Source: a virus
Length of the DNA: 64,000 nt
Virus record (IMG/VR): IMGVR_UViG_3300024346_000044
Span: 1-64,000 of that record
Direction: 5' to 3' (one strand)
Position 1 is the first letter of the stretch. Each line of letters opens with the position of its first letter. Positions 2,142-61,343 of this stretch are shown piece after piece. The notes beneath the pieces are model-generated. The model was given only the letters and a program-made list of their open reading frames with translations, was not told where the DNA came from and searched no databases. Position numbers and translations under genes: made by a program.

Positions 2142-3706
2142 GCGATATTAAAAAAATAATAAGACAAGAATATTTAAAATGTGCTTCAGATCCTGTACAT
2201 TTTATGAAAAAATATTGTTTTATACAACACCCTCAAAGAGGTAGAGTTATATTTAATTTATACCCATTTCAAGAAAGAGTATTAAACTTATTTAATGATA
2301 ACCCATATTCTGTTATTTTAAAATCTAGACAATTAGGTATATCTACTTTGTCTGCAGGTTATTCTTTATGGTTAATGTTATTTCATAAGGATAAAAACAT
2401 ACTTTGTATAGCAACGAAACAAGAAACTGCTCGTAACATGGTTACAAAGGTAAAATTCATGTTTGAAAATTTACCTTCATGGCTTAAAATTACAGCACCT
2501 GAAAATAACAAATTATCTTTACGGTTAGCAAATGGATCTCAAATAAAAGCAACCTCAGCGGCATCTGATGCAGGTAGATCAGAAGCAGTATCACTTCTAA
2601 TAATAGATGAGGCAGCCTTTATTGATAATATAGGTGAAATATGGGCTTCAGCTCAACAAACATTAGCTACTGGTGGTGGGGCAATAGTATTAAGTACTCC
2701 TTATGGTACTGGAAATTGGTTTCATAAAACATGGGTAGCTGCAGAAAATCAAGAAAATGATTTTTTACCTATTAAATTACCATGGTTTGTACATCCCGAA
2801 AGAGATCAAGAATGGAGAAACCGACAAGATGATTTATTAGGTGATCCTAGAATGGCAGCACAAGAATGTGACTGTGATTTTAGTACTTCTGGTGATGTAG
2901 TATTTTATGGAGAGTGGATGGAGTTTATTAAAGAAACCACTATATCAGAACCAACCGAAAGAAGAGGTGTTGATCAAAATTTATGGATTTGGGAACCAGC
3001 TGATTATTCAAGAGAATATATGATTACAGCTGATGTAGCTAGAGGTGATGGTAAAGATTTTTCGGCATGCCATGTAATGGATGTATTAACTAATACTCAA
3101 GTAGCAGAATATAAAGGACAGATGCCACCTAAGGAATTTGGATACTTTTTAACTGGTTTAGCTACAGAATATAATAATGCAATGTTAGTAGTTGAAAATG
3201 CTTCAATAGGGTGGGCAACACTAGATGCAATAATTGAGAGAGGGTATAGAAACTTATATCATTCTCCTAAATCAGAACAACTAACGGCACAATCTTATCT
3301 TAGAGTGTACGAGGGCAATAGTGAAATGACTCCGGGTTTTACAATGTCAATGAGAACAAGACCTCTTTGTATTAATAAAATGAGAGAATTTATTGGCGAT
3401 AAAAGTGTAACTATTCGCTCAAAACGTTTACTAGAAGAAATGAAAGTATTCATTTGGCGTAATGGAAGACCAGAAGCTCAAAGAGGTTACAATGATGACT
3501 TGGTTATGTCATTTGGGATTGGTATGTTCCTACGAGACACGTCGTTAAAATTTCAACAAGAAAGTGTAGACAGAGCTAGAGCCGCTTTAGGTGCAGTTAA
3601 GTCTAATAGCACAACTTGGAGTGGAGGATATTCAACTAATAGTGTTGAAAATCCATATAAAATGGACGTAGGTGGTAAAAATGAGAGTATAAAATGGCTC
3701 TTATGA
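2138..3706 (+). CDS. terL: terminase large subunit (DNA packaging motor, gp17-like)
   Basis: A 522-residue ATP-driven DNA translocase and endonuclease. ATPase part: P-loop KSRQLGIST at about 62-70, Walker B LLIIDEAA at 153-160, coupling motif STP at 186-188. The classical Lys near the end of the Walker A loop is Ile here; a Lys sits at the start of the loop, the deviant form known in many terminases. Nuclease part: TADVARGDGKDFS near 298-309 with the RNase H-like Asp299, and NDD near 475. It overlaps the previous gene by ATGA. The next gene is the portal on which it docks. Length is somewhat below T4 gp17 (610 residues). Confidence 0.95.
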   Translation: MSDIKKIIRQEYLKCASDPVHFMKKYCFIQHPQRGRVIFNLYPFQERVLNLFNDNPYSVILKSRQLGISTLSAGYSLWLMLFHKDKNILCIATKQETARNMVTKVKFMFENLPSWLKITAPENNKLSLRLANGSQIKATSAASDAGRSEAVSLLIIDEAAFIDNIGEIWASAQQTLATGGGAIVLSTPYGTGNWFHKTWVAAENQENDFLPIKLPWFVHPERDQEWRNRQDDLLGDPRMAAQECDCDFSTSGDVVFYGEWMEFIKETTISEPTERRGVDQNLWIWEPADYSREYMITADVARGDGKDFSACHVMDVLTNTQVAEYKGQMPPKEFGYFLTGLATEYNNAMLVVENASIGWATLDAIIERGYRNLYHSPKSEQLTAQSYLRVYEGNSEMTPGFTMSMRTRPLCINKMREFIGDKSVTIRSKRLLEEMKVFIWRNGRPEAQRGYNDDLVMSFGIGMFLRDTSLKFQQESVDRARAALGAVKSNSTTWSGGYSTNSVENPYKMDVGGKNESIKWLL

Positions 3707-5639: not shown

Positions 5640-6503
5640 ATGTATATAAAACACTCAAAATTCAAAAATACAGGTATATTATTTGAAATACTAGTAAAAA
5701 GGATAACAGCTGACACTTTATCCAATGGTGACTCGCCAGCAATAAACACATTAAGAAAATATTTTGTTAATACCGAATTAGGTAAGGAATATAAACTATA
5801 TGAAATGGTGTTTAAGGGGAAAAATGTCAAAGAAAATAAAGCTAATGCTATATTAAATACTGTGATTGAATCTTCTAAAAAACTTAATAGAACAAGATTA
5901 AGAAAAGAAAAATATAATTTAATTAAAGAACTTAAGGAAAATTATAATACAGCAGATTTATTCAAAACAAAAATATCAGATTATAAAACATATGCTTCAC
6001 TTTATACTTTATTTGAAGTATACAATACTGAAAATCCAACAGATCCTAACCAAATAGTTGATAATAAAGTTATTATTTTAGAACATCTTACAAGCACACC
6101 CATAGAAAGAGATAATGTTAAGGGTGATATTATAGAAGAATTTAAATCATATGATAAGGATGTTCGTATTTTAACTTACAGAATACTATTAGAAAAGTTT
6201 AATGAAAAATATTCAGATTTATCTCCAACACAAAAAAGAATATTAAAAGAATTTATTAATTCTGTAGATAATACTTCATCATTAAAGGATTTTTATAATA
6301 CTGAAGTACAAAATATTAAAAAGACAATATCAGAACAGATTAAAGTTACTAAAGATAAAATCATTCAAATTAAATTAGAAGAAGTTTCTAAATTAATAAA
6401 TGAATTAAATAAAAAAGATAAAGTAAAAACCGACCATTTAGTAGACCTACTCCAATACCACAGTCTTTTAAATGAATTAAACAAAGTTCATGCATCATTA
6501 TAG
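5640..6503 (+). CDS. hypothetical head-module protein
   Basis: About 287 residues, Lys- and Asn-rich, almost wholly helical with coiled-coil character in the last third. No catalytic motif or membrane segment. A TTG at 5637 directly before the ATG is an alternative start of no consequence. It lies between portal and prohead protease, the place of the core proteins gp67/gp68 in T4, and begins behind a late-type box, so I infer a prohead core or virion assembly role. I do not recognise the sequence as a named family. Confidence 0.65.
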   Translation: MYIKHSKFKNTGILFEILVKRITADTLSNGDSPAINTLRKYFVNTELGKEYKLYEMVFKGKNVKENKANAILNTVIESSKKLNRTRLRKEKYNLIKELKENYNTADLFKTKISDYKTYASLYTLFEVYNTENPTDPNQIVDNKVIILEHLTSTPIERDNVKGDIIEEFKSYDKDVRILTYRILLEKFNEKYSDLSPTQKRILKEFINSVDNTSSLKDFYNTEVQNIKKTISEQIKVTKDKIIQIKLEEVSKLINELNKKDKVKTDHLVDLLQYHSLLNELNKVHASL

Positions 6504-7878
6504 GCTTAAAGAAATAGAAGTAGGTGATACAGCGATTAGAATGGGTAAAAAATCTACGGTTTCTGCTATTGACGATAAAACAGGTAGAATCGAATGGGAT
6601 ATAGTAGATGCTGCTGATTTTTCATCTGTATATAAATCACTATCTAAGGCAAAAGATTTTTTAAGTACATTAGAAAAAGAAGGCAAAGCTAAAGGTGATA
6701 CTGTAATAGACGGATTCGCTAGAGACATAGCCAAATTATTTAATGCATTCAGAACACACGTTAGAAAGACATATCCAAAAGAATACGAACGTGTATCAAG
6801 ATTAAAAGAATCTATTACTGAAGCTAAAAACATGACTTTTGGAGATTTTTTAGATGATTTAGATAATAGATTTGTAGATATTTTAAAAGCTGCTAAAGGC
6901 TTAAATGCTGAAAACAGCAATACAATTGATATGAGAGCTACACTAAATCAAAATTTTACTTTATTTAGAAATTACATATCAGCATTAAAAAAACAATATA
7001 GTGATGAACTAGGGAAAGAATTAACATTTTCTGTAGAAGAAATGTCTACAACTGGTGGTGGTGCCGGAGCTGCTTCATTTAGTGGTGGTACAGGAATGCA
7101 ATACGCTACACCTTATGCTTTTAGATTAAAAGGTAAAAAACCAAACATTAAAGCATATAAAGAAATGGGTTATGAAGAAGTAAAAGAAGACATTTCATTA
7201 GAGGAAATGGAAGAATTTGCTGAAGGTAGAGGTGAAGGTGCAGATAAAATAGCAGAAAATGCTAAAGAAAAAGGTGGTAATTCGATGTTAACGTATCACC
7301 ATTTTAAGGTTAAATCCCCTTACTATAAAGAAGCATCAGATGGTAATTTTAATAAAGACAAATTTACTGAAGAATATAAAGGATTTTTAGAAGAACTAAG
7401 TGAATCTACCAAAGATGGTATGGACATTGACCCAATAGCATTTCAAGAAGTTATGGGTAAAATTGAAGTTTTAGGTGAATTATTAATTGAAAATAAAGAA
7501 CCATTAAACGAAATTAAAGAAGACATTGGGGCTACATTAGGACCAGGACCTAAAGCAAGTAGTGATGGGGTTAAAGATAGTGCATATGTAAAACAATTTA
7601 AATATTCATTAGTTCCTAAAAAAATTAAAAATTCAGGTATTGAAGTAAAACAATTATTTGAAGATGATACCCCACAAGTTAAATTCCAAAAACAAAGAAT
7701 AGAAGCATTTAGTGTAATTGAGAAAGAACTTAACGATATTTATAAGATGATAAGCAACGCAAAAGATGAAACTTTAGATTATTACAATGATAATCCTTCA
7801 TCATATGCAGTTGTTAAATCAACTGATTTAGTCATTGATTATTTAAGAGATATTAAATCTCTACTAAAACCAACATAA
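6490..7878 (+). CDS. hypothetical head-module protein with a capsid-like TGGGAGA motif
   Basis: 462 residues, overlapping the previous gene by 14 bases. Residues about 184-205 read VEEMSTTGGGAGAASF followed by GTGMQYATP. This is closely related to the N-terminal segment of the major capsid protein (MEESSTGGGAGAGTF then GTGAQWA), where T4-type capsid proteins are cut by the prohead protease. The flanking regions are helical and charged. The shared segment and the position between portal and protease suggest a prohead protein processed by the same protease. No enzymatic motif is visible and the family is not known to me. Confidence 0.7.
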   Translation: MHHYRLKEIEVGDTAIRMGKKSTVSAIDDKTGRIEWDIVDAADFSSVYKSLSKAKDFLSTLEKEGKAKGDTVIDGFARDIAKLFNAFRTHVRKTYPKEYERVSRLKESITEAKNMTFGDFLDDLDNRFVDILKAAKGLNAENSNTIDMRATLNQNFTLFRNYISALKKQYSDELGKELTFSVEEMSTTGGGAGAASFSGGTGMQYATPYAFRLKGKKPNIKAYKEMGYEEVKEDISLEEMEEFAEGRGEGADKIAENAKEKGGNSMLTYHHFKVKSPYYKEASDGNFNKDKFTEEYKGFLEELSESTKDGMDIDPIAFQEVMGKIEVLGELLIENKEPLNEIKEDIGATLGPGPKASSDGVKDSAYVKQFKYSLVPKKIKNSGIEVKQLFEDDTPQVKFQKQRIEAFSVIEKELNDIYKMISNAKDETLDYYNDNPSSYAVVKSTDLVIDYLRDIKSLLKPT

Positions 7879-20495: not shown

Positions 20496-23400
20496 ATGCC
20501 AAATTGGAAAAAAGTAATTGTATCTGGCAGTGATGCAATATTATCTAATATAACTGCCTCAGGTAATATAAGTGCAAGTGGCGATGTTACTGCAAGTGGA
20601 TTTTTAGGAGAATTTATTGGTAATTTAACTGGAAATGCAGATACCGCAACAATATTAGCAACATCTAGAAATATTAATGGAGTTCCATTTAATGGCTCTT
20701 CAGCTATTACTGTCCCAGCTGCAGGTTCAACCTTAACTGATACTGTACCAATAAGTAAAGGTGGTACCAATTTAACTTCATTAGGTAGTGCTTTACAAGT
20801 ATTAAGAGTAAATGCTGCAGGAAATGGATTAGAATATTCTACATCTACTGTTGGAGATATAACTTCTGTATTAGGTGGAACTGGTATTACTGTTACAGAC
20901 AGCTCAGGACCTTCCCCTTCAGTAGCAATTGATTCTACTGTAGTAACTTTAACTGGTGCTCAAGAATTAACTAATAAGGATTTAACAGGTGCAAGTAATA
21001 CTTTCCCTACTTTTAACCAATCTACTACAGGAAATGCTGCAACCGCTACAATTTTACAAACATCCAGAACAATTGGTGGAGTATCATTTAATGGTTCTGC
21101 AAATATTAGCTTACCTGGTGTAAACTCAACAGGTAATCAAGATACATCAGGAACAGCTGCTTCTTTATCTGCTACCTTAATAACTGGAAGAGGAGGAACA
21201 GGTCTATCTTCTATAGGAACTTCAGGTCAAATATTATCAGTGAATGGAGCAGGAAATGCCCTAGAATATATTACACCAACCGTAGGAGATATAACAGCAA
21301 TTCAAACTACTACGGGTGATCAGATGGTAATTACAAATGGTAATGGTCCAATACCGTCTTTAGCTATAACAACGGCAACAATAGCAGATGCAGGAACAGG
21401 CTTAGCAACAGCTGATCAAATTCATACATTTGTAACTACACAAACAGATGAAACAGCAGCAGATACATCGGGTAATGCCTCAACTTCTACAAAAATTGCT
21501 TCTATTACTAATGCTAATATTGTCCAACTAGCGGCAACTCAAGAACTAACTAATAAAGATTTAACAGGTGCAGGAAATACTTTTCCAACGTTTAATCAAT
21601 CCACCACAGGCAATGCAGCAACTGCAACAACCTTACAAACAGCTAGAAATATTAATGGTGTAAGTTTTAATGGTAGTGCTGCTATAACAATAACTGCAGC
21701 GGGTTCTACACTATCAGACACAGTCCCAATAAGTAAGGGTGGTACAAATTTAACTTCAGTAGGTACAGCGGGTCAAATATTATCAGTGAATGGAGCAGGA
21801 AATGCCCTAGAATATATTACACCAACTGTTGGGGATATTACTGCTATAGAAACTACTACAGGAGATCAAATAGCAATTACAAATGGTAATGGTCCAATAC
21901 CATCTTTAGCAATAACAACAGCAGCGATTGCAAATGGAGGTACTGGATTAGCTACAGCAGACCAAATTCACACCTTTGTAACTACTCAAACAGACGAAAC
22001 AGCAGCAAATACTTCAGGTAATGCGGCTACATCAACTAAAATATCAAGCATTACAAATAGTAATATTGTTCAATTATCATCAACTCAAGCACTGACTAAT
22101 AAGGATTTAACAGGTGCAGGAAATACTTTTCCAACGTTTAATCAAAATACTACGGGTAATGCAGCTACAGCAACTACATTAGAAACCTCTAGAAATATTA
22201 ATGGGGTAGCATTTAATGGTAGTGCTGCTATAACTGTTCCTGCTGCAGGTTCAACCTTAACTGATACAGTTACAGTTGCAAAAGGTGGTACAAATTTAAC
22301 ATCCTTAGGTTCTGCGGGTCAAGTACTATCAGTAAACGGAGCAGGAAATGCTTTAGAATATACCACACCAACAACAGGAGATGTAACAGAAGTAACTTCT
22401 GCAACAACAGACCAAATAACAGTAGCAAATAGTACAGGTCCAAACCCTGCTATTTCAGCAGTAACAGGAGTTATAGCTAATGGGGAAACTTCTTTAGCAA
22501 CAGCTGACCAAATTCATACTTTTGTAACTACACAAACAGATGCTACAGCAGCAGATACAAGTGGAAACGCTGCTACAGCTACAAATGTAGCATATACAGG
22601 TTTAACAGGAACAGTTCCTACTTGGAATCAAAATACATCTGGAACTGCTGCTTCTTTATCTTCTGTCTTAATAACTGGAAGAGGTGGAACAGGTTTAAAT
22701 TCTATAGGAACTGCAGGTCAAGTATTAACAGTAAATGCCGCGGGGAATGGATTAGAATATGCTACTTCTACAACAGGTGATATTACTGGGGTAACTGCAG
22801 GAACAGGATTAACTGGAGGGGGTACGTCAGGTAATGTTACTTTAAATATTGATTCAACCGTAGCTACATTAACAGGTACTCAAACATTAACAAATAAAAC
22901 ATTAACATCTCCTACAATTGGAGATACTAGTAATATTACATTTCCAACATTTAACCAAAACACAACTGGAAACGCTGCTACTGCTACTTTAGCTGATAGT
23001 GCTACTGTATTAGCAACTCCTCGAGCAATTAATGGTGTTAATTTTGATGGTAGTGCTGCTATAACAATAACAGCTGCAGGTTCAACTTTATCAGACACAG
23101 TCCCAATAAGTAAGGGTGGTACAAATTTAACTTCAGTAGGCACAGCAGGTCAAATTCTATCAGTAAACGGAGCAGGAAATGCTTTGGAGTATATTACACC
23201 AACAGTAGGAGATATTACAGCAATTCAAACAACTACAGGAGATCAAATAGCAATTACAAATGGTAATGGTCCTATACCCTCATTAGCAATAACAACGGCA
23301 ACAATAGCAGATGCAGGAACAGGTCTAGCTACTGCAGATCAAATTCACACCTTTGTAACTACTCAAACAGATGCTACAGCAGCAGATACAAGTGGTAACG

Positions 23401-26400
23401 CAGCTACGGCTACAATATTAGAAACAGCTAGAAATATTAATGGTGTAAGTTTTAATGGTTCTGCAAATATTACAATAACAGCAGCAGGTTCTACACTATC
23501 AGACACAGTCCCAATATCAAAAGGAGGTACTGGAGCTACTAGTGCAGGTGCTGCAAGAACATCTTTAGGAGTAGATGCAGCAGGAACAGTTAATTATACA
23601 TTACCAACAGCAGCCGCAAATACATTAGGTGGTGTAAAAATTGGAAGTGGAATTTCAATATCAAGTGGTGTAATATCAGCAGATAATAATGGCACTATAA
23701 CAAGTGTTACAGGAACCGCACCTGTTGCTTCATCAGGAGGGACTACACCTGTTATTTCAATGGCAGCAGCGGATGATAGTACTAATGGATATTTAACTTC
23801 AACAGATTGGTCAACTTTTAATTCAAAAGGTAGTGGTGATGTAACAGAAGTAACTTCTGCAACAACAGACCAAATAACAGTAGCAAATAGCACGGGTCCA
23901 AACCCTGCTATTTCAGCAGTAACGGCAGCAATAGCAAATGCGGGAACAGGATTAGCAACAGCTGACCAAATTCATACCTTTGTAACTACTCAAACAGATG
24001 CAATAGCAGCAAATACATCAGGAACCGCTGCTTCTTTATCCTCTACTTTAATAACTGGAAGAGGGGGAACAGGATTAACTTCTATAGGAAGTGCATTACA
24101 AGTACTAAGAGTAAATGCCGCAGGAAATGCTTTAGAATATGCTACTTCAACAGTTGGTGATATTACTGAAGTTCAATCATCTACTACAAACCAACTTGTA
24201 GTAACAAACGGAGCAGGTCCAATACCATCATTAGCAATAACAACAGCAGCGATTGCAGACGCGGGAACAGGATTAGCAACAGCAGACCAAATTCATACTT
24301 TTGTAACTACTCAAACAGATGAAACAGCAGCCGATACATCTGGTAACGCGGCAACCTCAACAAAAATAGCAAGTATTACAAATTCTAACATTGTTCAATT
24401 AACTTCTACTCAAACATTAACAAATAAAACATTAACATCTCCAACAATTGGAGATACTAGTAATATTACATTCCCAACTTTTAATCAAAATACAACGGGT
24501 AATGCTGCAACAGCTACAACATTAGCAACCGCAAGAACTATTGCAGGTGTATCATTTGATGGATCCGCTAATATATCATTAAATAATAATTCAATTACAA
24601 ATGGTGCAGGATATACTACTAATACAGGTACATTAACTGGTAATGGCGCAACAAATAGAGTTCCGATCTATAATGGGACTACATCATTCACAACAGACTC
24701 AGGATTTACATATTCATCTGATATATTAAGTACAGAAAAATTAAATATAACAGCTATAGCAGCAACTGTATCCGAGAATACTACAATCATGATAGATGGC
24801 GATGGCCAAACATTGACCAGAGAATTAGGTTCAAATGCTTACAATTCAACGACAATCGGTACAAATACAAATGCATTAACAGTTGATAATGCAACAGTTC
24901 AATTAAATTCCGGAACTACATTTAATGGTAGTGCAGCAAGAACATTATCTGCAAAAACAGCAGCAATTGCAAATGGTGGGGCAGCATTAGCAACAGCAGA
25001 CCAGATTCATACATTTGTTACTACACAGACCGATGCTATAGATGCCGATACCTCAGGTAATGCGGCTACAGCTACTATATTAGCAACTGCAAGAACTATT
25101 GCAGGTGTATCATTCAACGGTTCAGCTAATATATCATTAAATAACAACGCAATAACTAATGGAGCAGGTTACACAACAAATGCTGGAACATTAACTGGTA
25201 ATGGTACAACAAATAGAGTTCCAATTTATAATGGAACAACTTCATTTACTACAGATAGTGGATTTACATATTCATCTAATATATTAAGTACAGAAAAATT
25301 AAATATAACAGCTATAGCAGCAACTGTATCCGAGAATACTACAATCATGATAGATGGCGATGGCCAAACATTGACCAGAGAATTAGGTTCAAACGCATTT
25401 AATAGTACAACAATCCCAACTAACAATAACCAATTAACAAACGGAGCTGGGTTTACAACAAATGCTGGAACATTAACTGGAAACGGTACATCAAATAGAG
25501 TTCCAATCTACAATGGAACAACTTCATTTACTACAGATAGTGGATTTACCTATACCGGTAACAAATTAACTGCAGAAGGATTAAATGTAACCGGCCCAAT
25601 ATCAGCATCCATAGGAGCTGCTCCTTACATGAAATTAGATCTGGAAAGACAACTTTTTGGTGACACTGACGGAAATTCTAATGGTGCAACATTTATGTTA
25701 GATCAGACCTTAGGTTTTATTGTAGGATCGCCGATTATATCTTTAGATGGTGCAGTGACAATTAATGACTCAAGCAACGATGTAGACTTTAGAGTTGAAT
25801 CTAACGGCAACGCTAATATGTTGTTTGTAGATGCTGGAAATAATAGAGTTGGTATAGGAACTAATAGTCCAACTGAAGCACTAGATGTCAATGGTGCTTT
25901 TACAGCTACAAGTGTTAGATCTACAAGCGGAGGAACGGATGGTGGTTTTATTTTAAAACAATGGGCAGGTAGTACTAGCTACGCTTTTTTAGGTACTAAT
26001 GGTATGTCAGGAGTAGAGTACTGCATGATATCAGATGGTACTAATACTTTCTTAGGCGCTGGGACAGGTGGAGCTTTAAAATTAAGAGGACCTGCTAATG
26101 ATTCTTCTCCAGAAGTAATTATTAATGGAACTATAGTAGAAGTTAATACTGGTGATCTAAAAGTAACTGATGGATCTATAGCTGTAGGTAATATAACTAA
26201 TTCTACTACAGATGGTAGAATAGACGCTTCAAATGACGTTGTAGCTTTTTCATCATCAGATAAAAAATTAAAAGAAAATATTAAACCAATTAAAAATGCA
26301 TTAGATAAAGTATCTCAAATTTCAGGTGTTGAATTTGATTGGAAAGAATTAACTGAAGAAGAAAAATTATCTATACACGGGAATGAAGGGCATGATGTAG

Positions 26401-26558
26401 GAGTAATAGCACAAGAAATTGAAAAAGTATTACCTGAAGTAGTTCAAACTAGAGATAACGGTTATAAAGCAGTTAAATATGAAAAAATAGTTCCATTATT
26501 AATAGAATCAATAAAAGAATTAAAAGCCGAAATAGAAGAACTTAAAAAATCTAAATAA
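20496..26558 (+). CDS. giant tail fibre protein with C-terminal peptidase S74 chaperone
   Basis: 2020 residues. The N terminus (NWKKVIVSGS) matches that of the fibre gene at 18889. About 1500 residues of shaft follow, with recurring modules: LATADQIHTFVTTQTD occurs seven times, interleaved with SGNAATAT, NINGVSFNGSA and TLSDTVPISKGGT. Residues about 1690-1800 are nearly identical to a part of the fibre at 27672. The C terminus (from SSDKKLKENIKP) is the intramolecular chaperone domain of the endosialidase type (S74), with GVIAQEIEKVLPEVV; it trimerises and then cuts itself off. Probably the long host-recognition fibre. The next gene starts on its last base. Confidence 0.88.
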   Translation: MPNWKKVIVSGSDAILSNITASGNISASGDVTASGFLGEFIGNLTGNADTATILATSRNINGVPFNGSSAITVPAAGSTLTDTVPISKGGTNLTSLGSALQVLRVNAAGNGLEYSTSTVGDITSVLGGTGITVTDSSGPSPSVAIDSTVVTLTGAQELTNKDLTGASNTFPTFNQSTTGNAATATILQTSRTIGGVSFNGSANISLPGVNSTGNQDTSGTAASLSATLITGRGGTGLSSIGTSGQILSVNGAGNALEYITPTVGDITAIQTTTGDQMVITNGNGPIPSLAITTATIADAGTGLATADQIHTFVTTQTDETAADTSGNASTSTKIASITNANIVQLAATQELTNKDLTGAGNTFPTFNQSTTGNAATATTLQTARNINGVSFNGSAAITITAAGSTLSDTVPISKGGTNLTSVGTAGQILSVNGAGNALEYITPTVGDITAIETTTGDQIAITNGNGPIPSLAITTAAIANGGTGLATADQIHTFVTTQTDETAANTSGNAATSTKISSITNSNIVQLSSTQALTNKDLTGAGNTFPTFNQNTTGNAATATTLETSRNINGVAFNGSAAITVPAAGSTLTDTVTVAKGGTNLTSLGSAGQVLSVNGAGNALEYTTPTTGDVTEVTSATTDQITVANSTGPNPAISAVTGVIANGETSLATADQIHTFVTTQTDATAADTSGNAATATNVAYTGLTGTVPTWNQNTSGTAASLSSVLITGRGGTGLNSIGTAGQVLTVNAAGNGLEYATSTTGDITGVTAGTGLTGGGTSGNVTLNIDSTVATLTGTQTLTNKTLTSPTIGDTSNITFPTFNQNTTGNAATATLADSATVLATPRAINGVNFDGSAAITITAAGSTLSDTVPISKGGTNLTSVGTAGQILSVNGAGNALEYITPTVGDITAIQTTTGDQIAITNGNGPIPSLAITTATIADAGTGLATADQIHTFVTTQTDATAADTSGNAATATILETARNINGVSFNGSANITITAAGSTLSDTVPISKGGTGATSAGAARTSLGVDAAGTVNYTLPTAAANTLGGVKIGSGISISSGVISADNNGTITSVTGTAPVASSGGTTPVISMAAADDSTNGYLTSTDWSTFNSKGSGDVTEVTSATTDQITVANSTGPNPAISAVTAAIANAGTGLATADQIHTFVTTQTDAIAANTSGTAASLSSTLITGRGGTGLTSIGSALQVLRVNAAGNALEYATSTVGDITEVQSSTTNQLVVTNGAGPIPSLAITTAAIADAGTGLATADQIHTFVTTQTDETAADTSGNAATSTKIASITNSNIVQLTSTQTLTNKTLTSPTIGDTSNITFPTFNQNTTGNAATATTLATARTIAGVSFDGSANISLNNNSITNGAGYTTNTGTLTGNGATNRVPIYNGTTSFTTDSGFTYSSDILSTEKLNITAIAATVSENTTIMIDGDGQTLTRELGSNAYNSTTIGTNTNALTVDNATVQLNSGTTFNGSAARTLSAKTAAIANGGAALATADQIHTFVTTQTDAIDADTSGNAATATILATARTIAGVSFNGSANISLNNNAITNGAGYTTNAGTLTGNGTTNRVPIYNGTTSFTTDSGFTYSSNILSTEKLNITAIAATVSENTTIMIDGDGQTLTRELGSNAFNSTTIPTNNNQLTNGAGFTTNAGTLTGNGTSNRVPIYNGTTSFTTDSGFTYTGNKLTAEGLNVTGPISASIGAAPYMKLDLERQLFGDTDGNSNGATFMLDQTLGFIVGSPIISLDGAVTINDSSNDVDFRVESNGNANMLFVDAGNNRVGIGTNSPTEALDVNGAFTATSVRSTSGGTDGGFILKQWAGSTSYAFLGTNGMSGVEYCMISDGTNTFLGAGTGGALKLRGPANDSSPEVIINGTIVEVNTGDLKVTDGSIAVGNITNSTTDGRIDASNDVVAFSSSDKKLKENIKPIKNALDKVSQISGVEFDWKELTEEEKLSIHGNEGHDVGVIAQEIEKVLPEVVQTRDNGYKAVKYEKIVPLLIESIKELKAEIEELKKSK
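21390..25060 (+). repeat. tandem protein-coding modules in the giant fibre
   Basis: Seven copies of the segment encoding ATADQIHTFVTTQTD, in most copies followed by SGNAATxT and a NGVxFNGSA strand, are spread between these positions at irregular spacing. Some stretches are nearly identical in DNA, for example the part encoding LSVNGAGNALEYITPT near 21230, 21775 and 23155. The array looks like a product of repeated recombination within the gene. Confidence 0.8.
24721..24835 (+). repeat. long exact repeat, copy 1 (copy 2 at 25279-25393)
   Basis: About 115 bases are identical at an offset of 558 bases. The repeat encodes ILSTEKLNITAIAATVSENT and the following TIMIDGDGQTLTRELGSN. Perfect identity including third codon positions points to recent duplication or gene conversion in the fibre shaft. 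Confidence 0.8.
25566..25882 (+). repeat. segment shared with the fibre gene at 27672 (second copy 29412-29728)
   Basis: About 317 collinear bases with only scattered differences and no net insertion (constant offset 3846). Both encode LTAEGLNVT, GAAPYMKL, LERQLFGDTDGNSNGAT and NRVGIGTNSPTEALDV. The high DNA identity between two different fibre genes suggests module exchange inside the phage. Confidence 0.85.
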
Positions 26559-26992
26559 TGGCATTACCAGCATCAGGACCTATATCTTCAAGTCAAGTAG
26601 CCACTGAATTTAGTGTATCTCAAACTAATATTTCTTTATCAAATTTAGGTACCCAATTATCAACACCTATTACAGCAGGCCAACCAGTTAATTTAGCTAC
26701 TAGTTTCTATGGTCAAAGTAGTGGAGTTTCTGTTACAGCTTGGACTTTTGCTTCAAACAATCAAGAAACATGGGAATCAGTAGAAGATTTTTGTGAAAAC
26801 CTTCCATCTTTTGGCCCTACTCTTTATCATGATGGTTCTGGAACATACCCATCCACAAATGATGTTATATATAGTGACGATCCAGGAACTACTACAGTTC
26901 CGGGGGGGATTTATGGATACCAAGCAGGAAGAACTAAAACTCCATTAACAGTTGATAATAATGGAAAAGTTACTAGTGTAGGAGAATGTTAA
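26558..26992 (+). CDS. small tail/fibre-associated protein
   Basis: 144 residues. Its start MALPASGPISSSQVATEF with LSNLGTQL is a pattern I associate with small virion proteins encoded beside fibre genes in marine phages. The C-terminal part (ETWESVEDFCENLPSFGPTLYHDGSGTYP) has two Cys and several aromatics and may be a small globular domain. It starts on the last base of the giant fibre gene and its stop overlaps the start of the methyltransferase gene, so these three are co-translated. Function is unknown. Confidence 0.65.
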   Translation: MALPASGPISSSQVATEFSVSQTNISLSNLGTQLSTPITAGQPVNLATSFYGQSSGVSVTAWTFASNNQETWESVEDFCENLPSFGPTLYHDGSGTYPSTNDVIYSDDPGTTTVPGGIYGYQAGRTKTPLTVDNNGKVTSVGEC

Positions 26993-27624
26993 TGAATAAC
27001 TTAAATAAACATACAGAATATTTAAATAGTAAAGATAAACATATAGAGTACTTAAATAACAAAGTTTATTTTACAAAAGATAACAGACTATTAACTCCTA
27101 ATGCTCAACCAGTTATGATGGGATGGGAAGATCCCATAATGAAAGATGCAGCATCCTTAATATGTCATAACAAAGGAAAAATACTTAATGTAGGATTTGG
27201 ATTAGGGCTTATAGACACTTACATTCAATCTCATCAAGTACAAGAACATTGGATTATAGAAGCACATCCAGATGTACAAAATAAAATGAAAAATGATGGA
27301 TGGGGTAAAAAATCTAATGTTACCTGTTTGTTTGATAAATGGCAAAATGTTTATGATGAATTGCCTAAATTTGATGGTATTTATTTTGATACTTGGAAAG
27401 AGTCGTTAGATCTATTTCATAAAATAGTACCTAATTTATTAAAACCTGGAGGCAAATACACGTATTGGTCACCTAATGATTTGGAAGTCCATTCTGTATT
27501 TAAAACAAATGAATATAAAGTAGAAAATGGTATTACAAAATTAGATCATATATCATCAAACCAAAAATATTACAATACTTCAAAAGATTTATTTAATTAT
27601 AAACTAATAACTAAAAAATTATAA
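26992..27624 (+). CDS. SAM-dependent methyltransferase, guanidinoacetate/arginine N-methyltransferase-like (GAMT/RMT2 type)
   Basis: 210 residues. Sequence elements in the order of GAMT: VMMGWEDPIMKDAA (41-54), glycine loop ILNVGFGLGLID (64-75), HWIIEAHP (86-93) with the ribose-binding Glu90, FDGIYFDTW (127-135) with Asp133 at the place of the guanidino-binding Asp of GAMT, then LLKPGGKYTYW. This suggests methylation of an arginine or another guanidino group. The start is the ATG at 26992 (TAATG junction); the ATG at 26986 would add two residues. Lying among fibre genes, it might modify a fibre protein, but a small-molecule substrate is equally possible. Confidence 0.75.
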   Translation: MNNLNKHTEYLNSKDKHIEYLNNKVYFTKDNRLLTPNAQPVMMGWEDPIMKDAASLICHNKGKILNVGFGLGLIDTYIQSHQVQEHWIIEAHPDVQNKMKNDGWGKKSNVTCLFDKWQNVYDELPKFDGIYFDTWKESLDLFHKIVPNLLKPGGKYTYWSPNDLEVHSVFKTNEYKVENGITKLDHISSNQKYYNTSKDLFNYKLITKKL

Positions 27625-27671: not shown

Positions 27672-30356
27672 ATGGCTAAAAAACTCTCAAAAGTAGGAAT
27701 AGTAACTAATCAATTAGTTCTTCCACATCAAGTCACCCAGTCAATAGATGCATTTACTGGAGAAGAAGATTATGATATTAACTTATCTGGATCTTTAGCA
27801 ATTACTGGTTCTACTACAATTAAATTAGGAGGATTAACAATTTCAGATTCTGTCCTAGGTCCTGGTAGCTTAAATGTAACTAATATTACAGCAAGTAATT
27901 TACAAGTTGTTAATATATCTTCATCATTTGTTACTTCATCAACAATCTATACTTCAGGATCAAATATATTTGGAGATGAACCTTCTGATACACATACTTT
28001 TATAGGAGGTATTACAGCATCAGGTGTTATGAGTGCAAGTGGAGTTGTATTTGGAAGTCAAGTTCGAACCCCTGCAGTTTTTACAAATACAATAACTGAA
28101 AAAACATCTACCTCTGGTGTAACCATAGAGGGTACATTACTTAAAGATAATAATATAAGTACAGCAGGTACTATTACAGCTGGTGGGAATACATCAATAC
28201 CTAGAAACTCTAAATTTATTTTAGATGGAGATGATGGTAGTAATAGTTATATAACTCAAACCACCTCAAACATTTTACAAATAGTAAATCAGGGTAATAC
28301 CTTAATATCAGCAGGATCTGCTAATTTAACATTTACATCTATTCCAGTTATAATTTCTAATCAAAATTTCACAGTAACTGGAGGTGTAATTACAGGTGAT
28401 GGGGCAGGATTAACTAATATACCCGCAGCAGGAATAACTGGATTAAATCTATCTAGGATTGAAAGTGGTAGTGTTACGGCATCTATTTCACCTGATAAAG
28501 GCTTTGAGGTAAATACAAACATAACCTCTTCAGGAAATATAAGTGCTAATGGAAATATACAAAACTTAGATGGTTATGCATTATTCCAAAGAACATCAAC
28601 AGGTGTTGATTCTGTATTAAATGTAAGACAATTATCAACAGGAAATATTGCAGAATTTGGAACTAATACTAACAATGAATTAGTAATAATTAAATCGGAT
28701 GGAAAAGTTGGAATTGGGACTAATTCACCAACTGAAGCACTACATACTAAGACCACAGGCAATACAGTTGCAAAATTTGAAACTTCACTATCTTCAGATT
28801 TAGCAATACAACTAACTAATTCTCAAGGTAGTATGTTCTTTGGACTTGGGGGTGGAGAGGAATTTGCAGTAGGAACAACTTCTGATTTAAATGGAACTGA
28901 TAACTTATTTATAATAGAACAAAATGGCAACGTTGGTATAGGGAATACTAGTCCATCTCAAAAACTTGACGTAACTGGAAATATTAAAGTAAGTGGAGAC
29001 ATAGAGACTGCAACATTTACAAACCCTACACTAGATATAGCAGCTGGATCAGCTAACATGACAGCAAATATACCTTTAACTTTTGGTGCTTTACTAGCAG
29101 CGAATTTAGGTAGATTAGATATAAAACATGATAATTCCAACGGTAGTATTACTAATCGTTCAGGAGATTTAACAATTGGAAACACAGCAGCAAATAGTGA
29201 GATAATATTAGATAGTACAAATGGTGTAAAAATATCTAATATTGCGGATAATAGCAACACTGGATACAAAACAGTAGTAGTTGACACCTCTACTGGACAG
29301 TTATATAGAACTGGATCCTATGGTGGTGGAGGTGGTGGCGGCGGTGCTGGAATATTTATTCAAACAGGTTCATATTATGCTACAACAAATGATTTACAAG
29401 TAACAGGCTCATTAACTGCAGAAGGATTAAATGTAACCAGCGCAATATCAGCATCCATGGGAGCTGCTCCTTACATGAAATTAAATCTAGAAAGACAACT
29501 TTTTGGTGACACTGACGGAAATTCTAATGGTGCAACATTTGTGTTAGATCAGAACTCAGGTTTTGCTGTAGGATCGCCGATTATATCTTTAGATGGTGCA
29601 GTGACAATTAATGACTCAAGCAACAACTACGACTTTAGAGTTGAATCTAACGGCAACGCTAATATGTTGTTTGTAGATGCCGGAACTAATAGAGTTGGTA
29701 TAGGAACTAATAGTCCAACTGAAGCACTTGACGTAACTGGAAATATTGTTGCAAGTGGTGAAATGGAATGTACTAAGTTTGTAGCTAATGCAGCAGGAGG
29801 TTTTGAGTTTGAAATAGACGGAGACAATCAATTCAACATGATACACAATTTTGCTAACAGGTCAATGTTTTTTACAACTGCAGCTGGTACTGGTACTATA
29901 AATTTTGGAACTAATGCTCAAAACTCACAGGTTAGTATAACATCTGCTGGAAATTTAAATGTTGTTAATGATCTAACTGTTGGTGGAAGCGTAACTACAG
30001 GTGCTATAACAGCATCAGGCGATATAAGTTGTAGTTTCCAAGAATCAACAATAACTGCAACAACAGGATCATTTAATCACATTATTACAGATGGTGAAAC
30101 ATTAGAATTTAGAGATGCCACTACAAGAGCAAAAGTAGGAGCTTTAAAATTTGATGCAACTAATGGATTAGAAGTAAAAGATAGTGCGGGTAATGAAGGA
30201 AAATTAAAAACCAAAGAATTAAACATTCCATCTGGAGGTAGTATGATAATAGATGCAAGTCAAATTAATTTTAATAGTTTACCAACTTCAGACCCAGGAG
30301 TAGCAGGACGATTATGGAGAGATTCAAGAGATGGTAAAATCGTTGTATCTGGTTAA
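27672..30356 (+). CDS. tail fibre-type structural protein
   Basis: 894 residues with repeated beta-strand motifs (ITASGVMSASG, NITSSGNISANGN, SGSLTAEGLN), two GIGTNSPTEAL segments, and a Gly-only linker near 550. Residues about 580-685 are nearly identical to a segment of the giant fibre. The C-terminal end (SDPGVAGRLWRDSRDGKIVVSG) is a typical fibre terminus without S74 chaperone. It has its own late-type box. Probably a second adhesive or structural fibre; which tail position it takes cannot be told. Confidence 0.78.
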   Translation: MAKKLSKVGIVTNQLVLPHQVTQSIDAFTGEEDYDINLSGSLAITGSTTIKLGGLTISDSVLGPGSLNVTNITASNLQVVNISSSFVTSSTIYTSGSNIFGDEPSDTHTFIGGITASGVMSASGVVFGSQVRTPAVFTNTITEKTSTSGVTIEGTLLKDNNISTAGTITAGGNTSIPRNSKFILDGDDGSNSYITQTTSNILQIVNQGNTLISAGSANLTFTSIPVIISNQNFTVTGGVITGDGAGLTNIPAAGITGLNLSRIESGSVTASISPDKGFEVNTNITSSGNISANGNIQNLDGYALFQRTSTGVDSVLNVRQLSTGNIAEFGTNTNNELVIIKSDGKVGIGTNSPTEALHTKTTGNTVAKFETSLSSDLAIQLTNSQGSMFFGLGGGEEFAVGTTSDLNGTDNLFIIEQNGNVGIGNTSPSQKLDVTGNIKVSGDIETATFTNPTLDIAAGSANMTANIPLTFGALLAANLGRLDIKHDNSNGSITNRSGDLTIGNTAANSEIILDSTNGVKISNIADNSNTGYKTVVVDTSTGQLYRTGSYGGGGGGGGAGIFIQTGSYYATTNDLQVTGSLTAEGLNVTSAISASMGAAPYMKLNLERQLFGDTDGNSNGATFVLDQNSGFAVGSPIISLDGAVTINDSSNNYDFRVESNGNANMLFVDAGTNRVGIGTNSPTEALDVTGNIVASGEMECTKFVANAAGGFEFEIDGDNQFNMIHNFANRSMFFTTAAGTGTINFGTNAQNSQVSITSAGNLNVVNDLTVGGSVTTGAITASGDISCSFQESTITATTGSFNHIITDGETLEFRDATTRAKVGALKFDATNGLEVKDSAGNEGKLKTKELNIPSGGSMIIDASQINFNSLPTSDPGVAGRLWRDSRDGKIVVSG

Positions 30357-30744: not shown

Positions 30745-32466
30745 ATGGCAGAAACATTAATTTCCCCTGGGGTATTAGCAAGAGAGCAAGATCAATCCCA
30801 AATCACCTCACAACCTGTACAAGCGGGAGCAGCAATTATAGGTCCAACAGTATTAGGCCCAGTAGAAAGACCAACTTTGGTTACTACTTTTTCCGAATAT
30901 TTAGCTACTTTTGGTGGTGCTTTGCAGAGTGGTTCAGATGAATACTCATACTTTACAAGTATTTCAGCATTTAATTATTTCCAAGGTGGAGGTACTTCAT
31001 TAATAGTAACTAGAGTAGTATCAGGTTCATATTCTGCTGCTACATCATCATTTATTTCAGGTTCAAATGCACCAGCACTTGCTGCGGGTACTGCTTTTAC
31101 ATTAGAAACAATTGGTTCTGGAACTATAATGAATAGTACTAGTACATTAACTTCAAAAGGAGCTTTACCAAGTGGTAGTTCTAATAATGTTAGATGGGAA
31201 ATAACAACACCAGATACATCATCAGGAACATTTACACTTTTAGTTAGAAGAGGAGATGATAATACAAAATCAAAAAGAGTATTAGAATCTTACACAAACT
31301 TATCATTGGATCCAAAATCTTCAGGATACATAGCTAGAGTAATTGGCGATCAAACGACTACATTACTAGGTAGTGGAACAGCAGAACCTTACTTACAACA
31401 ATCAGGTAATTTTCCTAACGCTTCAAGGTATATAAGAGTAAAATCAGTAGATAAAAAAACACCAGATTATTTAGATAATGATGGAAATGCAAAATCTCAA
31501 TATACAGCTTCAATTCCAATCGCTTCTGCAGGTACATTTGGAGATGCTGAAGGTGGTATTAAAGCCGGAGCTAATTTTTATGATACTATAAACTCTACAA
31601 ACACACAAGGATTAGTAGAAGCAAATTATACAGATGCAATTAATTTATTAGCAAATAAAGATGAATTTAAATACAATATTATCACAGTACCAGGTTTAGT
31701 TTATGTTGATTATCCAACACCTTTAAACTCATTAATTGATAATACAGCAACTAGAGGAGATGCTATAGTAATAGCAGATACTGTAAATTATGGAGCTTCA
31801 ATTACAAATGTAATTTCAACAGCAGCAAGTATAGATTCATCATATACAGCAACATATTGGCCATGGTGTCAAATTACTGACCCAAGCACAGGACAATTAG
31901 CATGGGTTCCAGCTTCAACATTAATACCAGGAGTATATGCAGCTAATGATGCTTCAGCAGAAACTTGGTTTGCACCCGCAGGTATTAATAGAGGTGGATT
32001 AGGAGTAGTAAGACAAGCAGAAAGAAAATTAACACAAACAAATAGAGATAGTCTATATGTAGGAAAAGTTAATCCAATAGCTACATTCCCTGGAAGAGGA
32101 GTAGTAGTATTTGGCCAAAAAACACTACAAACAAGAGCAAGTGCTTTAGATAGAGTAAATGTTAGAAGATTATTAATTAGTCTAAAATCATTTATTTCAC
32201 AAGTAGCAGATAATTTAGTATTTGAACAAAATACAGCAGCTACTAGAAATAATTTCTTAGGACAAGTAAATCCATTTTTAGAAAGTGTACAACAAAGACA
32301 AGGATTATTTGCTTTTAAAGTAGTAATGGATGATAGTAACAACACACCAGATGTTATTGATAGGAATCAATTAGTGGGTCAAATATTTGTTCAACCTACA
32401 AAAACAGCAGAATTTATATACCTAGATTTCAACATTTTACCAACAGGAGCTACTTTCCCGGCATAA
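30745..32466 (+). CDS. 18: contractile tail sheath protein (gp18-like)
   Basis: 573 residues. Typical T4-type sheath elements: N terminus LISPGVLAREQDQSQI, then AAIIGPTVLGPVERPT near 29-44, VPASTLIPGVYAANDA-like region near 385-400, WFAPAGINRGGL near 408-419, and the C-terminal FEQNTAATRNNFLGQVNPFL near 494-513. The sheath contracts and drives the tube through the envelope. The gene has its own late-type box and is followed by the tube gene, the universal order of contractile tails. Confidence 0.95.
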   Translation: MAETLISPGVLAREQDQSQITSQPVQAGAAIIGPTVLGPVERPTLVTTFSEYLATFGGALQSGSDEYSYFTSISAFNYFQGGGTSLIVTRVVSGSYSAATSSFISGSNAPALAAGTAFTLETIGSGTIMNSTSTLTSKGALPSGSSNNVRWEITTPDTSSGTFTLLVRRGDDNTKSKRVLESYTNLSLDPKSSGYIARVIGDQTTTLLGSGTAEPYLQQSGNFPNASRYIRVKSVDKKTPDYLDNDGNAKSQYTASIPIASAGTFGDAEGGIKAGANFYDTINSTNTQGLVEANYTDAINLLANKDEFKYNIITVPGLVYVDYPTPLNSLIDNTATRGDAIVIADTVNYGASITNVISTAASIDSSYTATYWPWCQITDPSTGQLAWVPASTLIPGVYAANDASAETWFAPAGINRGGLGVVRQAERKLTQTNRDSLYVGKVNPIATFPGRGVVVFGQKTLQTRASALDRVNVRRLLISLKSFISQVADNLVFEQNTAATRNNFLGQVNPFLESVQQRQGLFAFKVVMDDSNNTPDVIDRNQLVGQIFVQPTKTAEFIYLDFNILPTGATFPA

Positions 32467-57753: not shown

Positions 57754-58544
57754 AAGTATCACACGAAGCACCAATACCCTATATGAAACAAGTTAGGGGA
57801 TTAATTGATTATGATTATTGTCTCCCCCATATGTTAGATGAAAATGAAGATTATGTAAAATATTTTCAAGAATCTAAAGAAATGGGGCGGTATATTATTA
57901 TGGATAACTCCTTACATGAGTTAGGACATCCATATGATAAAGAACGTTTGGCACATTGGCTATATTATTTCAAACCAGATGAGTTTATAGTACCTGATTA
58001 TTGGCAAGATAAAACAGCAACGTTAGTATCAGCTAAAGAATGGATTAATAAAATATATCCTGAAAATACTACTCCTATGGCTGTAGTACAAGGTAAAAAT
58101 AAAAATGAATCCAGAGAATGTTATGATATATTAAAACATCAAGGATATCAAAAAATAGCATTTAGTTATGGAGCTGATTGGTATTATGAAAATGGAAAAT
58201 CTACTTCTAAAACCACAGAAAATATAACAGTAACTAAAGCCCATGGCCGGTATAATTTTATAAAAGAATTATATGAGGATAATACAATATCAAAATCAGA
58301 CAGAATACATTTATTAGGTTGCAATATACCCCAGGAATTTAAATGGTATAAAAATATGCCATTTATAAAAACAATAGATACATCAAACCCAGTTATACAT
58401 GGTTTATCAGGAATAAAATATGAACCCTGGGGGTTAAATAACAAAATATCTACTAAGGTAGATAAATTTAAAGGAGAAGCTGAGCATTGGGAAACAGCAA
58501 TTTACAATATACAATTATTTAAAACATTTATACCAAAAACATGA
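57750..58544 (+). CDS. dpdA: DpdA-like DNA-guanine transglycosylase (TGT superfamily)
   Basis: 264 residues. Segments align in order with tRNA-guanine transglycosylases: YIIMDNSLHELG near 47-58 (place of the catalytic DSGGF Asp), MAVVQGKNKNESRECYDIL near 110-128 (the VQGG strand), HLLGCNIPQEF near 188-198 (the GVGxPEDL strand) and IKTIDTSNPV near 208-217 (the nucleophile Asp before PTR). It lacks the long tRNA-binding C-terminal domain. With queC, queD and queE in the same cluster it most likely exchanges guanine in phage DNA for a 7-deazaguanine, which blocks restriction enzymes. ATGA overlaps join it to both neighbours. Confidence 0.78.
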   Translation: MKVSHEAPIPYMKQVRGLIDYDYCLPHMLDENEDYVKYFQESKEMGRYIIMDNSLHELGHPYDKERLAHWLYYFKPDEFIVPDYWQDKTATLVSAKEWINKIYPENTTPMAVVQGKNKNESRECYDILKHQGYQKIAFSYGADWYYENGKSTSKTTENITVTKAHGRYNFIKELYEDNTISKSDRIHLLGCNIPQEFKWYKNMPFIKTIDTSNPVIHGLSGIKYEPWGLNNKISTKVDKFKGEAEHWETAIYNIQLFKTFIPKT

Positions 58545-59407
58545 AACAAGCAGTATTAAGTTTAAGTGGTGGGATGGATAGTAGTACACTATTACTTCAC
58601 TTATTAGCAAACGATTATAAAGTAACAGCTCTAAGTTTTGATTATGGTCAAAAACATAGAGTTGAATTAGAAAGAGCACAACAATTAGTAGATTATTTAA
58701 ATGATAATGGTCAAGATATCACATATCAATCTATTAAATTAGATGGTTTAACATCATTATTAGATTCAGCTTTAGTAGAAGGTGGGGATGATGTGCCCGA
58801 AGGACATTATGAAGAAGATAATATGAAAGCAACAGTAGTGCCTAATAGAAATAAAATATTCTCATCACTAATACAATCTGTAGCGTTATCAATCGCTAAT
58901 AAAACAGAATCATCGGTAAAAATAGCAATGGGTATACATGCTGGGGATCATGCAATTTACCCTGATTGTAGACAAGAATTTAGAGATGCGGATTATAAAG
59001 CATTTGCTGAAGGTAATTGGGATGCTCAAAGAGTAGGATTATACACACCTTATTTAGATGGAGATAAATTTGATATTTTAAAAGATGGAGAAGTATGTTG
59101 TAAAGAATTAGGAATTGATTTTGATGAAGTTTATAAAAGAACAAATACATCATACAAACCTGTTTTTATACCTCACCCTTGGTCTGATACTGGAGGAGGA
59201 AATTGGTATTCAGATTACAAATCGGCATCATCAGTAGAAAGAATAGAAGCATTTTTAAAATTAGGAAGACCTGACCCTGTGGTATATGCTGATGAAACAG
59301 GAGTTGTAGGTTATGAAATTGCAAAATCTCATGTTCAAAAATTATTGGATGAGTATGCAAATAATCCTAATATGAATGATACCATTGATATGGTAAATAA
59401 TATGTAA
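58541..59407 (+). CDS. queC: QueC-like 7-cyano-7-deazaguanine synthase, zinc motif missing
   Basis: 288 residues. PP-loop ATP-binding motif SLSGGMDSST at 7-16, SFDYGQKHRVELERA near 33-47, VPNRNKIFSSL near 101-111 and IAMGIHAGDHAIYPDCR near 127-143 are all typical QueC. It converts 7-carboxy-7-deazaguanine to preQ0 with ATP and ammonia. Near 213-250 the usual T-SCY...CGxCxxC zinc site reads TNTSYKP...YKSASSVERIEAF, so the cysteines are absent, while the rest of the helix is kept. It may have lost the metal or make another product. It is longer than common QueC (about 230) and not fused to an amidotransferase. Confidence 0.87.
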   Translation: MKQAVLSLSGGMDSSTLLLHLLANDYKVTALSFDYGQKHRVELERAQQLVDYLNDNGQDITYQSIKLDGLTSLLDSALVEGGDDVPEGHYEEDNMKATVVPNRNKIFSSLIQSVALSIANKTESSVKIAMGIHAGDHAIYPDCRQEFRDADYKAFAEGNWDAQRVGLYTPYLDGDKFDILKDGEVCCKELGIDFDEVYKRTNTSYKPVFIPHPWSDTGGGNWYSDYKSASSVERIEAFLKLGRPDPVVYADETGVVGYEIAKSHVQKLLDEYANNPNMNDTIDMVNNM

Positions 59408-60572: not shown

Positions 60573-61343
60573 ATGAAAAGAATAGAAGATTATAACAAAG
60601 TGTTACCAGTATTAGAATTATACAGATGTGTTCAAAGTGAAGGTAGCAGATTTGGTAGACCAACTATTGCGGTTAGAACTACAGGATGTACTCATAGATG
60701 TTATTTTGGAGATGGGGGTTGGTGTGATTCTTGGTATACAAGTATACACCCAGAAAAAGGTACATTTACCTTTAATGATATTATTAAAATATATGATGAC
60801 AACCCCCATGTAAAAGAAATGATGCTTACTGGTGGTTCGCCTACAATGCATCCTGCTTTAGTAAATGAAATAACACATTTTGCAAATGAAAGAAACATTT
60901 TGGTTACAATTGAGACAGAAGGTTCTCATTTTCTTGAAACAGACCATCCTTTGGATCTTATTAGCCTTAGTCCTAAATTTAGTAATAGTGTGCCTGTACT
61001 TGGCGCTGTTACACCTAATGGGGCTGTCGCCGATGAACGAATGATTAAAGTGCATAATAGACTTAGATTAAATAAAGAAGCTATTAGTAAAACAATTGCA
61101 TACCATAAAGATTATCACTTCAAACCCGTATGGGATGGTACAGATGAAAATCTAAAAGAAATTGAGGCATTTAGGGTAGATATGGAAATACCCAAAGATA
61201 AAACTTATATAATGCCTGCTGGGGATACAAGAGAAACATTAGTAAAAATGTATCCTTTAGTATTTGAATTGTGTGCTGAAAAGGGATATAATATGACAGG
61301 CAGAGACCACATCATTGCATTTGATACAGAAAGAGGTGTCTAA
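60573..61343 (+). CDS. queE: QueE-like 7-carboxy-7-deazaguanine synthase (radical SAM)
   Basis: 256 residues. ELYRCVQSEGSRFGRPTIAV near 14-33 is the classical QueE start (substrate and SAM contacts). The 4Fe-4S cysteines follow in GCTHRCYFGDGGWCDSWYT near 38-56: spacing CxxxC then seven residues before the third Cys, unlike the common CxxxCxxC. MLTGGSPTMHP near 88-98 is the GGEP-type motif, and TIETEGS near 119-125 fits. It rearranges 6-carboxytetrahydropterin into 7-carboxy-7-deazaguanine, feeding QueC. It is longer than most QueE proteins. Confidence 0.88.
   Translation: MKRIEDYNKVLPVLELYRCVQSEGSRFGRPTIAVRTTGCTHRCYFGDGGWCDSWYTSIHPEKGTFTFNDIIKIYDDNPHVKEMMLTGGSPTMHPALVNEITHFANERNILVTIETEGSHFLETDHPLDLISLSPKFSNSVPVLGAVTPNGAVADERMIKVHNRLRLNKEAISKTIAYHKDYHFKPVWDGTDENLKEIEAFRVDMEIPKDKTYIMPAGDTRETLVKMYPLVFELCAEKGYNMTGRDHIIAFDTERGV

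Follow-up and report, generated by a model that had tools for sequence, protein, structure and literature searches.

A phage GAMT-type methyltransferase with a fibre-tip protein as its proposed substrate

Guanidinoacetate N-methyltransferase (GAMT), the enzyme with which animals make creatine, methylates the internal nitrogen of the guanidino group. The catalytic domain of RMT2 is GAMT-like as well, and the enzyme carries an N-terminal extension with ankyrin repeats. Yeast Rmt2 makes delta-N-monomethylarginine at Arg67 of Rpl12 (PMC3365026, PMC4860837), and RMT2, the type IV protein arginine methyltransferase, has been described as confined to fungi and plants (PMC3365026). Viral GAMT in ocean viromes, including nine Arctic populations, has been read as an auxiliary metabolic gene for creatine synthesis (PMC11360552). 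Methylated arginine and methylated lysine have been reported from the virions of Cellulophaga phages, including R23 and R580 of a putative tail fibre (PMC13288928). Those phages have no known methyltransferase of their own and host enzymes are presumed to be responsible (PMC13288928), whereas the enzyme described here is encoded by the phage itself. In the literature searched we came across no phage-encoded protein arginine methyltransferase, and virus-encoded arginine methylation of a fibre protein seems not to have been described before.

The DNA analysed here (the window) is a stretch of 64,000 nucleotides from a marine phage and forms part of a 72-kb virus record. An open reading frame at 26992..27624 (+ strand) encodes the enzyme, with 210 amino acids from the ATG at 26992, exactly where the first-pass annotation had put it. 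The gene immediately upstream (26558..26992, +) encodes a small fibre-associated protein of 144 amino acids, the substrate proposed below, whose C-terminal domain ends in a cysteine. The two genes overlap in a TAATG sequence (26990..26994, +) in which the enzyme's ATG (26992-26994) shares a nucleotide with the TAA stop (26990-26992) of the small protein, in agreement with the earlier suggestion of translational coupling; the same overlap is present in five relatives (L003, L004, L007, L008 and L012), and an alternative in-frame ATG lies at 26986. Both genes belong to a T4-like tail module, and the fibre-gene setting first noted from the open reading frames is real. On the 5' side lies a large tail fibre of 2020 amino acids (20496..26558, +) with PHROG tail-fibre matches and a C-terminal S74 intramolecular chaperone domain (9e-18). 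A second fibre-like structural protein of 894 amino acids follows on the 3' side (27672..30356, +), with repeats of the C-terminal region of the first fibre and weak PHROG matches, and then the genes for the tail sheath (30745..32466, +) and tube. The nearest cultured relative is Flavobacterium phage immuto, also the closest cultured backbone, with 68% DNA identity across sheath and tube. In the annotated tail region of immuto no such gene separates fibre and sheath, and a tblastn search with the enzyme found no match in this phage. Elsewhere in the window we observed genes for QueC (2.1e-37) and for a radical SAM protein (58541-59407 and 60573-61343) that flank tRNA genes for Gln, Ala and Glu, a region that is likely part of a 7-deazaguanine pathway.

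The enzyme is a genuine member of the GAMT superfamily. A phmmer search against all PDB chains returned GAMTs only (6e-17 to 1.7e-15), and a profile built from 33 phage relatives matched GAMT at 1.5e-31, with the next family at 8e-7. The AlphaFold model (pLDDT 90.4, pTM 0.87) gave the same answer when searched against the folds in the PDB, where the best five matches were all GAMT (6e-15 to 3e-12), followed by spermidine synthases at about 2e-7 (2.4e-7). All sequence motifs on which membership had originally been argued (GWEDPIM, ILNVGFGLGLID, HWIIEAHP, FDGIYFDTW and LLKPGGK) are found in the protein. In the phmmer alignment E46 (codon 27127-27129) is aligned with Glu45 of GAMT, whose role we take, from GAMT structures, to be guanidino binding. 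D133 (27388-27390) is aligned with GAMT Asp134, the proton acceptor (PMC12471008). Both residues are invariant in the 33 phage relatives, and their equivalents are visibly kept in Chlamydiota and other bacterial relatives. The first-pass annotation had named two outcomes that would refute its GAMT/RMT2-like assignment, namely a profile search placing the protein in an unrelated methyltransferase family and the absence of the Glu/Asp pair in close phage homologues. Neither came true, since the profile search ranked GAMT best, as did the comparison of the predicted structure (6e-15), and the pair is present in all phage homologues, close and distant. Pairwise omega between phage copies of the enzyme ranged from 0.11 to 0.44, and the gene is thus maintained by purifying selection. 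No model in Pfam, NCBIfam or PHROGs claims the protein at threshold, and no canonical PRMT (types I-III) appeared among its profile or Pfam matches that would indicate a catalytic core of the PRMT1/5/7 type.

The likeness to GAMT (PDB 3orh, 1xcj, 1khh) thus extends over sequence, profile, fold, the Glu45/Asp134 pair and the order of the motifs WExPxM, EHWIIE and YDT. On the other hand, identity in the structural alignment is only about 26%, the phage protein has 210 amino acids as against 235, and its gene resides in a fibre operon, with a protein as the proposed substrate. The likeness to RMT2 is one of proposed reaction, i.e. delta-N-monomethylation of one arginine in one dedicated protein, and was not drawn from a direct sequence comparison; the PDB matches of the profile included no RMT2. 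The ankyrin extension of RMT2 is missing from the phage enzyme, which consists of its 210 residues alone and has no Pfam ankyrin match. It is probably of the same broad family as the viral GAMT (K00542) of the ocean viromes.

The C-terminal domain of the small protein comprises about 88 residues (YHDGxGxxP...GDxVYTNSGGT...Cys) and occurs also in phages without the enzyme. In the AlphaFold model G124 and R125, encoded by GGA AGA at 26927..26932 (+), lie in the turn that joins strands 117-123 and 126-132, at what is predicted to be the tip of a beta-hairpin, and the pLDDT of the hairpin region is about 93-97. R125, the methylation site proposed below, is the sole arginine of the 144-residue protein, and the same holds for the corresponding residue in L001, L008 and L010. 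That the small protein is a component of the virion is an inference, drawn from its position and domain only. A tblastn search of cultured phages with this protein and two copies of the domain from loci without the enzyme found nothing, nor did a fold search of the PDB with the model; a fold search of BFVD retrieved uncharacterised viral proteins, one of them from Cellulophaga phage phi17:1. In four loci where the domain occurs without the enzyme (L136, L141, L168 and L172) it is followed by a conserved protein of 160 amino acids (MNWIYKxxxIxDITQFP...GFVYMTTHKPTGKSYIGKK) that, by eye, resembles a GIY-YIG nuclease.

Gly-Arg at the hairpin and the presence of the enzyme go together. All distinct copies of the domain were collected, those whose next gene is the enzyme were classed as linked, and the residues that separate the GD-x-VY motif from the terminal cysteine were scored; Gly-Arg was found at the hairpin in 12/12 distinct linked copies as against 0/28 distinct unlinked ones. 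Only the hairpin position was counted, since some unlinked copies carry GR elsewhere in the domain (e.g. LAGRTTDVC in L144), and a count of GR anywhere in the domain was rejected for this reason. Identity among the linked domains is mostly just 27-65%, and among the columns that are invariant in them G124 and R125 are the only ones not common to the unlinked copies as well. Most unlinked copies have a gap at these two positions, which means that the linked copies carry a longer hairpin containing the GR. The profile used in the domain search was built mostly from linked copies, a bias that should favor copies with GR; despite this, no GR copy without the enzyme was found. Nor did a profile search of the whole contigs of 29 unlinked loci reveal the enzyme elsewhere on them (positive control L007, 2.8e-84). 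Its presence outside these contigs cannot be excluded since they are fragments from uncultured viruses. The strength of the association should be interpreted with caution. A naive Fisher test gives 2e-10, but this ignores the kinship of the copies, and since the linked copies may share ancestry the value overstates the evidence and is not usable as a probability. A domain tree from which the GR columns had been left out requires three to four changes of the enzyme label; only one independent contrast lies on strongly supported branches, which is too few for a test.

A comparison at one conserved site is possible within a single phage lineage (L004, L007, L012, L024, L174, L176 and L179). The N-terminal parts of the seven small proteins are 64-92% identical, and the next conserved gene, common to all seven, has 82-99% DNA identity. 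Where the enzyme is present (L004, L007 and L012) the hairpin reads GR, and where it is absent the two positions read GK (L024), GS (L174), RS (L176) and NA (L179). In L024 both ends of the enzyme gene survive, with 21 codons at the start and the last few at the end, from which we conclude that this phage has lost the gene by deletion. L012 and L174 share 81% identity over the N-terminal part, 36% over the C-terminal domain and 94% over the next gene, a pattern which indicates that the tip domain and the enzyme were exchanged together between constant flanks. As an observation in its own right, comparison of L174-L176 and L179 with L004, L007 and L012 shows that the small protein exchanges its C-terminal tip domain at a fixed point, with the enzyme or without it.

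In IMG/VR, relatives of the enzyme are present at no fewer than 159 loci. In the closest group (73-100% identical) the small fibre-associated protein always precedes the enzyme where the upstream gene is visible. In unrelated phages (L073, L087, L097 and the 634-kb megaphage L026) the enzyme follows directly behind fibre or fibre-like genes, and the fibre-adjacent members occupy at least two, and probably three, separate places on the enzyme tree. A search for a counterpart of R125 at the ends of the fibres before these four distant enzymes found no arginine in common, also not within the fibre-linked pair L087/L097. Other branches adjoin genes for GroEL, GroES and the clamp loader, and further ones sit within arrays of 2OG-Fe(II) oxygenases, several of them confirmed by Pfam; as many members are found in such non-fibre settings, the other branches may have other substrates. 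The enzyme was found in no cultured phage, and one metagenomic megaphage has it. In species genomes the bacterial relatives are mostly from Chlamydiota and Verrucomicrobiota.

Several of these arrangements may deserve attention of their own. In L019-L023, L046-L049, L052, L056 and L068 the GAMT-like enzyme has a fixed place between the GroEL/GroES/clamp-loader genes and a conserved protein of 80 amino acids. In L078, L086, L090, L096 and L100 it is embedded among 2OG-Fe(II) oxygenase genes, and such runs together with the enzyme could possibly be a set of genes for the modification of virion proteins; a literature search on fibre modification by oxygenases found nothing. One phage (L058) has two GAMT-like paralogues, at 2944-3528 and 5992-6627, one of them directly 3' of a 2OG-Fe(II) oxygenase-like gene. 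The GAMT-like proteins of L105-L123 and L125-L127, mostly from Chlamydiota and Verrucomicrobiota, are longer (about 285-346 amino acids) and have a C-terminal extension.

We hypothesize that the phage enzyme is a SAM-dependent N-methyltransferase of the GAMT/RMT2 type that acts on a protein instead of guanidinoacetate, and that its substrate is the fibre-tip protein encoded by the overlapping gene just upstream. According to this hypothesis the guanidino group of R125, displayed at the tip of the beta-hairpin, would be held by the E46/D133 pair and receive a single methyl group. By analogy with GAMT the methyl group would probably be placed on the internal (delta) nitrogen, yielding delta-N-monomethylarginine. 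The C-terminal domain of the substrate and the enzyme would pass between phages as one cassette, with the remainder of the fibre and its neighbouring genes left in place. The benefit might lie in an altered contact with the receptor, or in keeping trypsin-like host proteases away from an exposed arginine. The first-pass annotation had suggested that an arginine of some virion protein is methylated; the co-occurrence of GR and enzyme now adds a candidate residue, R125 of the protein encoded at 26558-26992. The data establish the family, the active-site pair, the overlap of the genes, the co-occurrence and the remnant left by the deletion, but methylation itself has not been measured, and it is by inference only that we assign to the enzyme a catalytic activity, this substrate, the delta nitrogen as target and a benefit to the phage. 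With these reservations we think it reasonably probable that the enzyme is a dedicated arginine methyltransferase that modifies R125 of the fibre-tip protein and is exchanged together with its substrate domain as a cassette. The more general proposition is that fibre-tip domains travel among phages in two-gene cassettes, each together with a private type IV-like arginine methyltransferase for a single hairpin arginine of the domain; in our judgment this could go either way.

It could be argued that the GR hairpin says nothing about the substrate and is a neutral hitchhiker, linked to the enzyme by shared descent only. Resolution of the domain tree is indeed weak, and all linked copies may belong to one group, but G124 and R125 have remained fixed while the rest of the linked domains diverged to identities as low as 27-50%, and L024 falls among the GR copies and yet has lost both the enzyme and the arginine; hence we regard mere hitchhiking as quite improbable. 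The hairpin could also be informative in another way, as a mark of enzyme docking or of a common type of receptor, with a different host or virion protein being methylated. Such an explanation would accommodate the wider family, with its members beside chaperonin, clamp-loader and 2OG-Fe(II) oxygenase genes. It is nevertheless unlikely in our opinion, given that what sets the linked copies apart is a single residue, an exposed arginine, just the kind of group that this enzyme family binds, and that at one fixed place in the genome this arginine is lost along with the enzyme.

Substrates other than proteins must be considered as well. Conversion of guanidinoacetate to creatine, as proposed for the viral GAMT (K00542) of the ocean viromes (PMC11360552), would be consistent with GAMT being the nearest solved family, with the intact guanidino-binding pair and with the 85.4-fold enrichment of the viral gene over cellular homologues reported there. 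The gene in the window, however, overlaps a fibre-protein gene and moves with the fibre domain, and a metabolic role leaves the co-occurrence with GR unexplained. Moreover, there is no obvious source of guanidinoacetate for an enzyme enriched so far above cellular homologues, and the 72-kb record, which is possibly incomplete, has no match to the amidinotransferase/deiminase model PF02274, which may itself miss some amidinotransferases. We consider creatine synthesis highly improbable for this enzyme. The active-site chemistry would also be compatible with some other small guanidino compound, such as free arginine or host guanidine, or with a role in countering host defence, and the family is broad enough to include Chlamydiota proteins of unknown role; with the gene fixed beside a fibre-tip gene and the GR hairpin co-occurring with it, such a function is likewise highly improbable. 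Both the genomic context and the co-occurrence thus argue for a protein substrate, a reading that contradicts the creatine role published for viral GAMT (PMC11360552).

The proposal that the enzyme methylates R125 of its neighbour specifies one enzyme, one substrate and one residue. If true, it would provide the first phage-encoded protein arginine methyltransferase and the first enzyme forming delta-N-methylarginine outside fungi and plants. It would also be evidence that much of what is annotated as viral GAMT serves virion modification and not creatine metabolism, and the ocean-wide conclusion that creatine synthesis is the most enriched viral metabolic gene (PMC11360552) would need revision. 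The repeated occurrence of the family beside fibre genes and beside 2OG-Fe(II) oxygenase arrays suggests that marine phages have further enzymes for modifying their virions. If R125 is indeed methylated, phages would be able to tune the proteins with which they contact their hosts by arginine methylation that they encode themselves.
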